Below, piece by piece: positions 3,017-47,228 of a stretch of DNA of 64,000 nt. Position numbers and translations under genes: made by a program. A model generated the notes under the pieces. That model made no database searches, had not been told where the DNA came from, and was given only the letters and a program-made list of their open reading frames with translations. Source of the stretch: Methanococcus voltae (GTDB lineage: Archaea > AGJL01 > Methanococci > Methanococcales > Methanococcaceae); assembly GCF_017875395.1 (NCBI RefSeq), contig NZ_JAGGMO010000001.1:434001-498000 (forward strand). The letters are read 5' to 3'. How positions within the stretch are numbered: the first letter of the stretch is position 1; each line of letters begins with the position of its first letter.

Positions 3017-4291
3017 TTGTATTTAACTACTGAAGAAGAAAAAATATATAATGGGGAGTACGGAGAAACTCTCGAAATGTGTATGAATTTAATTGTATCT
3101 CTTGGGGACATTTATGGAGCTGAAAAATTGATTGACGTTACGTCAGCCCAGGTTTCCGGAGTTTCCTATAAAACTATCGGCGAAAAAGGACTAGAATTTT
3201 TAAGAGATATGTCAGATAGTGGCTTAAAAGTTTCAGTACCTACAACCTTAAACCCTGCAGGTATGGATTTAATAGATTATAAAAATATTGGATTTCCAGA
3301 AGATTTCGCAAAAAAACAGCTTGAAATCATAGATTATTTTGAAAAAATGGGAATTGAGTTAGGTTGTACGTGTACTCCTTACTTATCGGGCAATGTTCCA
3401 AGATTTAGAGACCATATATCCTGGGCTGAATCCTCTGCAGTATGCTACTCAAATTCCGTTCTCGGCGCCTATACTAACCGAGAAGGGGGGCCCTCTGCCT
3501 TAGCTAGTGCAATATTGGGTAAAACTTCATACTACGGTTATCACCTAGATGAAAATAGGATACCTAATTTTAAAGTTAATTTAGATTTGGACTTTGAAAA
3601 AATTGGTCTAAAATGCGATAATAAAATTAATAACATGGCGTCTTATGGATTAATAGGTAGATATGTAGGAAGAATTGTAAAAAACGGTATACCATACTTT
3701 AATTTTAGCAATGGACAAAAAAACGATGGATTGAATATCAAAAGTGAGTGTTTAAAAGGACTTGGAGCTGCATTGGCTGCGAGTGGTGGTGTTGCATTGT
3801 ACCATTTTAATGGAATAACTCCCGAAGCCATCTGTACTTATGATAATGAATTTAATAAGGGTAATTTAAAATTTGACGATGAAATTACAATTACAAATGA
3901 AATGATTGAAGAAGAACTTTCAAAATTCAATAACGACCAAAAAATAGACTTAATATGTATTGGTTGCCCACACAGTGGAATAAGTGAAATAAAGACAATT
4001 GTTGATATCCTTCTGGAAGAGAAAAAACCGCTTAAAACAGATTTATGGGTTTGTACCTCAATATATACAAAAGCAATAGCCGATAGAATGGGGTATACAA
4101 AAATTATAGAAGATGCAGGCGGTAAAATAGTCGTAGATACATGTATGGTTGTTGCGCCTATTGAAAAAATGGGTTATAAATACGTAGCTACAAATTCCGG
4201 AAAAGCAGCCACCTATTTGCCTAACTTCTGTAGCAGTGAAGTAATATACGGTTCTATCGAAGAATTAATTAGAAAAGGATTAAATCAATAA
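3017..4291 (+). CDS. Aconitase X large subunit; probable phosphomevalonate dehydratase large subunit
   Basis: 424 residues of the aconitase-X catalytic family (DUF521): N-terminal YLTTEEEKIYNGEYGE, then LIDVTSAQVSGVSYKTIGEKG, PTTLNPAGMD and the cysteine-bearing GCTCTPYLSGN, GCPHSG and DTCMVV segments expected to hold an Fe-S cluster. In archaea the large and small AcnX subunits dehydrate mevalonate 5-phosphate to trans-anhydromevalonate phosphate for isoprenoid lipids. The small subunit gene is not adjacent. Translation starts at TTG, the first codon after AGGGTG with normal spacing; no ATG lies near. The 260-base gap upstream is AT-rich with no gene seen. Confidence 0.85.
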   Translation: MYLTTEEEKIYNGEYGETLEMCMNLIVSLGDIYGAEKLIDVTSAQVSGVSYKTIGEKGLEFLRDMSDSGLKVSVPTTLNPAGMDLIDYKNIGFPEDFAKKQLEIIDYFEKMGIELGCTCTPYLSGNVPRFRDHISWAESSAVCYSNSVLGAYTNREGGPSALASAILGKTSYYGYHLDENRIPNFKVNLDLDFEKIGLKCDNKINNMASYGLIGRYVGRIVKNGIPYFNFSNGQKNDGLNIKSECLKGLGAALAASGGVALYHFNGITPEAICTYDNEFNKGNLKFDDEITITNEMIEEELSKFNNDQKIDLICIGCPHSGISEIKTIVDILLEEKKPLKTDLWVCTSIYTKAIADRMGYTKIIEDAGGKIVVDTCMVVAPIEKMGYKYVATNSGKAATYLPNFCSSEVIYGSIEELIRKGLNQ

Positions 4292-24974: not shown

Positions 24975-25287
24975 GTTATACATTCGTATAATATTTGTAA
25001 TCATAAAACTCTTCTTTTTTAATCATTGAAATTTAACATTGTTTTATAATCATTTATTCTATTATGAAAATTATTGTATAACTTTATATATTATACATTA
25101 ATATTATATTGATATAGTATAATTTTAATTTTGTAATTTGTAATCAATTGTTAAATTTATATTATTACTTATTTATTTCGGAAAATACATATCATAAAAT
25201 AATAAGTTAAGATAAAAAGAAAAAATAAAAAAGAAAAGTAGCTTAAACTTTTTTAGTAATATATTATAAAATTTAAGGTGTAATATC
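24975..25287. other. Gene-free region before aif2a
   Basis: 313 bases with no coding sequence seen. A TTTATATA sequence occurs at 25083-25090 and may serve aif2a, implying a long leader of about 170 bases. Otherwise AT-rich sequence without a notable fold. Confidence 0.4.
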
Positions 25288-26079
25288 ATGAAATCTAATT
25301 TTCCAGAAGAAGGCGATATTGTAATAGGAAATGTAAGTGACGTTAAATCATTTGGTGCATTTGTTGAATTATTAGAATACCCTAAAAAAGAGGGTATGGT
25401 ACACATCTCTGAAGTTTCATCAGGTTGGATCAAGAACATAAGGGACCACATTAAAAAAGGACAAAGAGTTGTTGCAAAGGTTGTAAGAGTAAATCCTAAT
25501 AAAAATCAGATTGATTTATCATTAAAAAGAGTTACCGACCAGCAGAAAAGAGCAAAAGTTCAAGAATGGAAGAGATTCCAAAGAGCTGAAAAATTATTAC
25601 AATTTGCATCAGAAAAACTTGGTAAATCTTTAGAAGACGCTTGGAAAGAAGTAGGATACACAATTGAAGAAGAATTCGGAGAATTATATGTTGCATTTGA
25701 ATCATTAGTTATCGAAGGAGAAGAAGCTTTTGAAGATATGGACATTCCAAAAGATTGGACCGAAGAATTATATAAGATTGCAAAAGAAAACATCGAACTT
25801 TCAAATGTTAAAGTGGATGGTATGTTATCCCTTTCAACAACAGAACCAGATGGAATAAAAGTAATTAAAAAAGTAATTAAAAAAGCAATAAAAGCTAACC
25901 CTTATGAAGATGTTCAAGTTGATGTATCATATATAGGGGCTCCAAAATATAGACTTGAAGTAATTGCTCCAGATTATAAAAGCGGTGAAGAAGTCTTAAG
26001 AAGTGTAGCTAACGAAGCTATAAAAGATATTGTTAAATATGCCGATGGAAAAGGCGACTTTATAAGAATTGAAGAATAA
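25288..26079 (+). CDS. eif2a: Translation initiation factor aIF2, alpha subunit
   Basis: 263 residues; part of the heterotrimer that delivers initiator Met-tRNA to the 30S subunit. The N-terminal S1 domain has FPEEGDIVIGNV, GAFVELLEYPKKEGMVHISE and NPNKNQIDLSLKR. A helical middle domain (QEWKRFQRAEKLLQFASEK) precedes a C-terminal alpha-beta domain. Length is typical. The RBS is AAGGTG. It is followed 48 bases later by nop10, a common archaeal arrangement. Confidence 0.96.
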   Translation: MKSNFPEEGDIVIGNVSDVKSFGAFVELLEYPKKEGMVHISEVSSGWIKNIRDHIKKGQRVVAKVVRVNPNKNQIDLSLKRVTDQQKRAKVQEWKRFQRAEKLLQFASEKLGKSLEDAWKEVGYTIEEEFGELYVAFESLVIEGEEAFEDMDIPKDWTEELYKIAKENIELSNVKVDGMLSLSTTEPDGIKVIKKVIKKAIKANPYEDVQVDVSYIGAPKYRLEVIAPDYKSGEEVLRSVANEAIKDIVKYADGKGDFIRIEE

Positions 26080-40134: not shown

Positions 40135-40408
40135 ATTATCACCATGTATCCTTTTTCATATATTGAATGAATTAGTATATAAATACTTTGGATAACATAA
40201 TATCTTTACCAAAATTTGATTACAAGTTTTTTTAGCAGATCATTTGAAACCATTATTTGATTTTAGTAAATTATATGTTAATATGATTTATGATTTTAAA
40301 AATATATAAATTAAAATACTAACTTAATAATAAAACTAGAGAAAAATATAATATAAAAATTAGATAAATTAGATAAATTAGGTAAAAAATTATTAATGAG
40401 ATGATATT

Positions 40409-40756
40409 ATCAAAAATGAGGAACTTTCAAAAATATCTAAAGAATTACTATCAGGGGCTAAAATGTTAGGAAAACATTGTAAAACCTGCAATTTCCCCCT
40501 ATTTGAAAAAAGTGGAATAGAGTATTGTCCAAATTGTAAAGGTAATACGCCCCCTACGGATGATAAAAACGAAATAAATTCCATAAATTTAAAAAATATA
40601 AATTATAACAAAGTAATTGAAGATAAAATAAGTTTTTTGTGTAATTTACTTAATAAAGAAACTGATTTAGATAATATTCATAAAATTAGCAATTTAATAT
40701 CTGAATTATTAGAACTTTCCAATAAATTGAATGATTTTCAAAAAAGTAGAAAGTAG
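40409..40756 (+). CDS. Autoantigen p27-like zinc protein, probable ATC start
   Basis: 115 residues if started at ATC 40409, 97 if at the first ATG (40463). The zinc ribbon CKTC...CPNC follows LLSGAKMLGKHC; in the Sjogren's/scleroderma autoantigen 1 (p27) family the segment LLxGAKML before the first Cys pair is conserved, and here it lies upstream of or across the ATG. The only RBS-like sequence (AGATGAT, 40399-40405) fits ATC 40409 with 3-base spacing, and no ATG, GTG or TTG lies in frame between the upstream stop (40397) and 40463. The C-terminal half is a predicted coiled coil. Function unknown. Confidence 0.75.
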   Translation: MKNEELSKISKELLSGAKMLGKHCKTCNFPLFEKSGIEYCPNCKGNTPPTDDKNEINSINLKNINYNKVIEDKISFLCNLLNKETDLDNIHKISNLISELLELSNKLNDFQKSRK

Positions 40757-46084: not shown

Positions 46085-46229
46085 AGAATATTAGACTATA
46101 AATTCAAATCAGTACTTTATTAAATAACAAATTACAAATATTCTTAAGAAGAAATTATATAATTAGTTAAAACGCAAGAACTATAATAAATAGATTATAA
46201 ATCATAAAAACTGAAATAGGGGTGAAATT

Positions 46230-47228
46230 ATCACCGGTTTCAACTCAAAAGAGCCTTTAAAGTTAACTCATAAAATAGATATTCCCTTAGATGTATGGGA
46301 GGAAAACGTTAAGGAATATATATCAAATTACAACGCCGTAACAAAAGAAACTGGCAAATTATTCATATTTGCAGGAGACCAGAAAATAGAACACTTGAAT
46401 AACGATTTCAAAGGGGATGGGATATCTATTGAAGATTCAAATCCAGATCATTTGTTTAAAATAGCTAAATACGGTAAAATTGGAGCTTTTGCCACTCAGT
46501 TTGGATTGATATGTAGATATGGAAGGGATTATCCAGATATAGACTACATCGTAAAATTAAATTCAAAGACTAATTTAGTAGAAACTTGTCAAAAAGACCC
46601 CATTAGTACGTTATTGATTGATGTAAATGAAATAGTGGAATTTAAAAAGAGAACGGGCTTAAAAATAAGGGGAATAGGATATACCATCTATTTGGGAAGT
46701 GAATTTGAAAATATTATGTTATCAGAAGCCAGTCGGTTAATTCATGAAGCCCATAAAAATGGATTAATTGCAGTTATATGGATCTACCCTCGAGGTAAAG
46801 CCATTAGAAATGAAAAAGACTCGAATTTAATTGCAGGAGCTACGGGAGTAGGGGCTTGCATAGGTGCTGATTTCGTAAAAGTTAATTATCCGAAATCTAA
46901 AGAACCAGAAATAGATTTCAAAGATGCAGTAGCTTCTGCAGGTAGAACGAAAGTGATATGTGCGGGGGGATCTAGTAAAAAACCAGAAGAGTTTTTAAAA
47001 ATCCTTTCTGAGCAAATAAATATTAGTGGGGCGTCAGGTTGTGCCACAGGGCGAAATATTCACCAAAAATCATTATTAGACGCTGTAGCTTTGACATATG
47101 CAATTAATGAGATAGTTTACAATAATAAAATTATAGAAGATGCCTTAGAATTCTTAAAACCAGAAATAAAAGAAAAAATAAGAGATGAAATACTTTTAAA
47201 ACAGTATGAATCTGAAAAAATAAAATAA
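46230..47228 (+). CDS. DhnA-type class I aldolase (fructose-bisphosphate aldolase family), probable ATC start
   Basis: 332 residues if begun at ATC 46230. Without it the first usable codon is TTG 46395, which would remove ~55 residues including IFAGDQKIEH, a family-conserved first barrel strand. GGGTGA (46220-46225) sits four bases before ATC, the same spacing as AGGTGAAATTATG elsewhere in this window. Later motifs: WIYPRGKAI, the Schiff-base Lys in GADFVKVNYP (about residue 217) and the phosphate loop SGASGCATGRN. Substrate uncertain: FBP aldolase, or a relative making aromatic-amino-acid precursors. Confidence 0.82.
   Translation: MTGFNSKEPLKLTHKIDIPLDVWEENVKEYISNYNAVTKETGKLFIFAGDQKIEHLNNDFKGDGISIEDSNPDHLFKIAKYGKIGAFATQFGLICRYGRDYPDIDYIVKLNSKTNLVETCQKDPISTLLIDVNEIVEFKKRTGLKIRGIGYTIYLGSEFENIMLSEASRLIHEAHKNGLIAVIWIYPRGKAIRNEKDSNLIAGATGVGACIGADFVKVNYPKSKEPEIDFKDAVASAGRTKVICAGGSSKKPEEFLKILSEQINISGASGCATGRNIHQKSLLDAVALTYAINEIVYNNKIIEDALEFLKPEIKEKIRDEILLKQYESEKIK

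Follow-up and report, generated by a model that had tools for sequence, protein, structure and literature searches.

The class I aldolase gene at position 46230 of the 64,000-nucleotide stretch of DNA analysed here (the window, from genome G000) is very probably translated from an AUC codon by way of its Shine–Dalgarno (SD) sequence and, judged from sequence comparison, would be one of about 8–12 genes per genome in the Methanococcus lineage, roughly 1% of genes, that start at AUU, AUC or AUA (AUH; ATH in DNA). The gene and its start region are made up of the following elements:

46230–47228, forward strand: class I (DeoC/FbaB-like) aldolase of the PRK06852 family, 332 codons from the ATC, with TAA at 47226–47228
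46230–46232, forward strand: predicted ATC initiation codon, kept in G000, G005 and G006
46221–46225, forward strand: SD sequence GGTGA, 4 nt 5′ of the ATC and within GGGGTGA
46212–46214, forward strand: in-frame TGA stop six codons before the ATC, common to the three species
46395–46397, forward strand: TTG, the first canonical in-frame codon, which is not the start and is absent at that place in G005 and G006

The identity of the gene product was established by profile comparison. The full-length protein scored 508.8 bits against NCBIfam NF005321, above the curated cut-off of 420, with residues 12–311 covering profile positions 5–306 of 308, and this places it among the PRK06852 aldolases (class I, DeoC/LacD fold). 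The protein also matches Pfam DeoC (PF01791), and relatives are present in 52 of the 61 genomes searched. A contig search with a single aldolase protein gave no match, and one with an alignment returned only more distant aldolases.

The region 5′ of the TTG was then read directly. The order is TGA, AAT AGG GGT GAA ATT ATC, so that the spacer between SD and ATC is AATT, and no in-frame ATG, GTG or TTG lies between the TGA at 46212 and the TTG at 46395, which stands exactly 55 codons past the ATC and is immediately preceded by IFAGDQKIEH. The aldolase accordingly has no usable canonical start, as expected of a near-cognate AUH gene. A first-pass annotation made from the letters of the window had described both the 55 codons upstream of the TTG and the SD-AATT-ATC arrangement, and both descriptions were borne out. 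With the trained start model described below, the aldolase SD scored 13.7, as compared with 12.1 for the 90th percentile of ordinary genes. Reading of the upstream TGA as selenocysteine was also considered and was rejected, as a further stop lies a few codons 5′ with no start in between.

The start region was compared with those of G005 and G006, which are separate species-level assemblies whose aldolases are 95% and 88% identical to that of the window. The relatives of the window and its base composition point to Methanococcus as its genus, and to the voltae group, within the Methanococcaceae. All three species carry AGGGGTGA-N4-ATC-ACC at this point, with AGGGGTGA-AATT-ATC in G000 and G005 and AGGGGTGA-AAAA-ATC in G006, and the orthologs thus share an AUH codon where the SD sets the start. 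In the more distant Methanococcales the aldolase start is an ATG or GTG displaced inwards by a few residues, while the close species keep the ATC, in keeping with the ATC start that the first-pass annotation had proposed. That annotation had also offered a recurrent G-to-C error as an explanation. The genome is indeed a 15-contig draft, but the ATC stands at the same place in all three assemblies, and tpiA (see below) has an ATH start in 16 genomes. Because the codon is conserved in the separate G005 and G006 assemblies, an error converting ATG to ATC is excluded for practical purposes, and a sequencing or assembly origin of the ATC must be regarded as extremely improbable.

Initiation at TTG 46395 or another downstream codon, with the first 55 codons serving as a leader, is nearly as hard to sustain and is judged highly improbable. 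TTG starts are common in this genome (the scan below counted 77 that have an SD), but the next canonical codon after the ATC lies at 55 codons in G000, at 19 codons in G005 (a TTG) and at 127 codons in G006, and TTG 46395 itself is missing from the latter two. Within the 55 codons there is conserved aldolase sequence with invariant columns (FAGDQK). For codons 2–55, pS was 0.36 and pN 0.07 against G005 (pN/pS about 0.19), and pS was 0.77 and pN 0.09 against G006 (pN/pS 0.12), although within codons 2–8 the changes are too few to prove the reading frame. By these values, which lie far below 1, codons 2–55 evolve as coding sequence under purifying selection.

The existence of a wider class was explored with a start-site model trained on 718 ordinary starts from G000 and G006 contig C1. 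Among these ordinary starts, GGTGA at −9 to −5 was dominant, and the spacing was 4 in 328 of the 383 cases with GGTG. The scan covered 1.70 Mb (90%) of the window's genome with all 64 codons scored alike; it was directed at coding open reading frames lacking an SD-supported canonical start, and the codon at the SD-set position was recorded. At a score of at least 8, all 10 codons recorded were ATT, ATC or ATA (background 15%, binomial P = 7e-9), and at a score of at least 6 the figure was 12 of 14 (P = 1e-8). When G006 C1 was scanned alone, 4 of 6 were ATH (P = 0.008). Although part of the same genome supplied the training data for the model and the coding score, these data were ordinary starts, so that ATH was not favoured over other codons. 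SD-supported canonical starts in the scan comprised 708 ATG, 77 TTG and 42 GTG. The pattern GGTGA-N4-ATC has 31 genomic matches, nearly all internal, and was rejected as a sufficient start pattern; only the aldolase match qualifies as an AUH start.

Eight AUH genes hold in at least two species, namely the aldolase and the first seven entries below; the last line gives candidates seen in a single genome:

40409–40756, forward strand: Auto_anti-p27 zinc-ribbon protein, the second AUH-start gene of the window, with ATC at 40409–40411 after GATGA at 40400–40404, spacer TATT
C1:293708: RimK-like ATP-grasp gene, ATT in three species, with GGTGA-TAAT-ATT in G016 and GGTGA-GATT-ATA in G008
C1:191535: lipoprotein-like gene, ATT, ATT and ATC in the three species
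C1:23044: TrmB-like gene, ATT in three species
C4:67653: radical SAM gene, ATT in three species
C4:53442: gene with ATC in G000 and G006
G000:C4:141788–142450, minus strand: tpiA, triosephosphate isomerase (L258), ATT start
G000:C2:4442 (minus strand), G000:C5:63476 (plus strand) and G000:C4:47152 (plus strand): ATT candidates, two lipoprotein-like and one unidentified

The first-pass annotation had suggested, from two genes of the window with ATC in the start position, a real initiation class; a scan of the window indicated 40409–40756 as the second of these genes. The scan and the eight genes conserved between species uphold the class, but not its restriction to AUC: the sequence data support an AUH class in which AUU occurs more often than AUC, and AUA is also seen. 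One further hit, C2:221963 (ATC, score 10.4), was left out, as it is followed six codons later by an ATG.

The start of the p27-like gene reads GATGATATT-ATC in G000, GATGATACT-ATC in G005 and GATGATACC-ATT in G006, and in the alignment this codon falls opposite the ATG of orthologs from other Methanococcales, for example MDDEILKTLSNELL in L084. The SDs of this gene (GATGA) and of the lipoprotein-like gene (TGTGA) are weak. At precisely the residue of the RimK-like AUH start, L161, L164 and L166 have ATG. The RimK-like gene of G013 has a similar ATT, but in both G013 and G016 an in-frame ATG also precedes the ATT by five to six codons, which makes these two cases less certain. Elsewhere in the window, positions 25270–25290 read GGTGTAAT-ATC-ATG, in which the ATC stands near the SD-preferred spacing and the ATG follows directly, a possible dual or shifted start, and TTG starts with GGTG near a spacing of 4, which are frequent, were noted at 3017, 10652, 29946 and 40134.

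These alignments also bear on a programmed −1 frameshift, in which translation would start at an NTG eight bases upstream and slip to the main frame after no more than a few codons. Both window genes do have such an NTG at −8 in each of the three species (GTG in GGTGA, ATG in GATGAT); in the p27-like gene it is followed by a slippage-suited A-run, and in the aldolase the short frame between the GTG and the first A-run shows fair conservation as well. However, the NTG belongs to the SD and is found at −8 in every ordinary GGTGA-N4-ATG gene, and no SD precedes it. In addition, the RimK-like protein (MKIGIL) and tpiA (KPVIIINYKTY) align with ATG-started orthologs from codon 2, leaving no room for a slip. 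A frameshift is consequently considered improbable, and initiation at the AUH codon is the reading retained here.

The strongest AUH case is tpiA, which is probably a better showcase than the aldolase. In 16 genomes from three genera its start is ATT, ATC or ATA after GGTGR at a spacing of 4: ATT in G000, G005, G006, G008, G004, G013 and G014, ATC in G001, G002, G003, G018, G007, G015 and G012, and ATA in G017 and G019. Two genomes of another genus, g4, have ATG, the sister family Methanocaldococcaceae has ATG or TTG, and G010 and G016, where an in-frame ATG or GTG stands a short way upstream, are ambiguous. The next canonical codon that could serve instead is often past the conserved N-x-K motif near the N terminus. 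When the start states of 19 genomes were mapped onto a protein tree from which that codon had been left out, at least six changes were required, four of them among ATT, ATC and ATA. The third base drifts between T, C and A, which is what acceptance of any AUH would predict, together with AUG being avoided in most cases or not regained.

The genome encodes two initiator-type tRNAs, both with anticodon CAT, and no initiator tRNA with another first anticodon base (an NAT variant) was found in it by anticodon-stem pattern; a dedicated AUH-reading initiator tRNA was rejected on this ground. The most likely mechanism is SD-driven near-cognate initiation with the ordinary Met-tRNAi. The GGGGTGA SD would pair with the 3′ end of the 16S rRNA and so bring the AUC, which lies 4 nt further on, into the P site; there the Met-tRNAi (anticodon CAU) would accept it with a third-position mismatch. 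We infer that initiation occurs at the AUC, or AUH, codon itself and that Met is inserted there, and the aldolase protein would then most likely begin with Met. A weak AUH codon may in turn lower or regulate output.

Archaea use aIF1, not IF3. The aIF1 gene of this genome starts at ATG behind GAGGTG, and an infC-like autoregulation was rejected because of that ATG. According to PMC8211752, which cites Hasenohrl et al., archaeal aIF1 selects against non-canonical start codons, and AUH genes could therefore respond to aIF1. That the AUH-start genes of the Methanococcaceae form a regulon, their output set together by start-codon stringency (for example through aIF1 or tRNA modification), seems rather unlikely. 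Its members would be carbon-metabolism enzymes such as tpiA and the aldolase, the ATP-grasp ligase, the radical SAM enzyme, the regulator and the lipoproteins, and such a set would be an archaeal counterpart of IF3 control over many genes.

AUU and AUC starts are known from bacterial infC, a case of IF3 autoregulation, with ATT in E. coli and ATC in Streptomyces (PMC5472188). The likeness lies in AUH replacing AUG in several species; here, however, the organism is an archaeon, about 1% of genes are concerned, and the gene encodes an aldolase and not an initiation-fidelity factor. In Streptomyces, sigR has a GTC start that is repressed by IF3 and misplaced by conventional gene calling (PMC5472188). 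The AUH genes share with it a rare start codon misplaced by gene calling, but the sigR codon is GUC rather than AUH, and its repression by IF3 has been shown, whereas regulation of the AUH genes is conjectural. Among archaea, an ATC start has been described for L12ae of Staphylothermus marinus (PMC2678158) and an ATT start with a plausible ribosome binding site for Asgard atubA (PMC13394414). In those cases, too, AUC or AUU was deduced from alignment or from missing N-terminal structure, but each concerns one gene, in contrast to the gene set described here, with its cross-species conservation and genome-wide statistical test. A 2020 review of archaeal translation initiation, at least in part of its text, names only AUG, GUG and UUG starts (PMC7531240). 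No multi-gene conserved archaeal AUH set and no tpiA case was found in the open-licence papers searched, which does not amount to proof of novelty. If the present reading is correct, these methanogens use AUU, AUC or AUA to start about 1% of their genes, among them the gene of an enzyme of central carbon metabolism in most of the family, and such genes would be truncated or misplaced by automatic annotation. M. maripaludis and M. voltae are genetically tractable, and would offer several native genes for studying start-codon discrimination by aIF1 and the possible use of this discrimination in regulation.

The aldolase start is further distinguished by a predicted RNA structure:

46212–46242, forward strand: conserved hairpin enclosing the aldolase SD and ATC, with an outer and an inner stem, in three species

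The outer stem pairs 46212–46217 with 46237–46242 and the inner stem pairs GGTGA (46221–46225) with TCACC (46231–46235), giving the pattern TGAAAT-AGG-GGTGA-N5-TCACC-N-RTTTCR, in which the SD pairs with codons 1–2. The folding energy was −9.8 kcal/mol (z −2.6) in the window and −8.8 kcal/mol (z −2.8) in G006; with 80 bases of context added, the z-score drops to −1.15. This fold would probably restrain translation of the aldolase further, and it may be the reason for AUC rather than AUU at this gene, although three sequences cannot prove it.

A related, tentative possibility is that the ATC owes its fixation chiefly to completing a hairpin that hides the SD, so that the gene would be a regulated one and its ATC start a by-product, a reading that would add to AUC initiation. 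It draws on the retention of the two-part stem in three species, with the energy and z-scores given above, and on the cost of a G at the third position of the start codon, with which the core hairpin has −2.4 kcal/mol instead of −6.2. However, while 33 of 33 pair cells are formed in the three species, the only variation is in two pairs, by single-sided changes of the G-U type, and no compensatory change was seen in the stems of the three species compared. The hairpin is, moreover, not obviously common to the other AUH genes examined, an ATC within a conserved hairpin being found at the aldolase only, and the sole other GGTGA-N5-TCACC palindrome in the genome, on C10, sits inside another open reading frame. 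Note also that AUCACC, the first two codons of the aldolase, exactly matches a portion of the archaeal 16S 3′ end.
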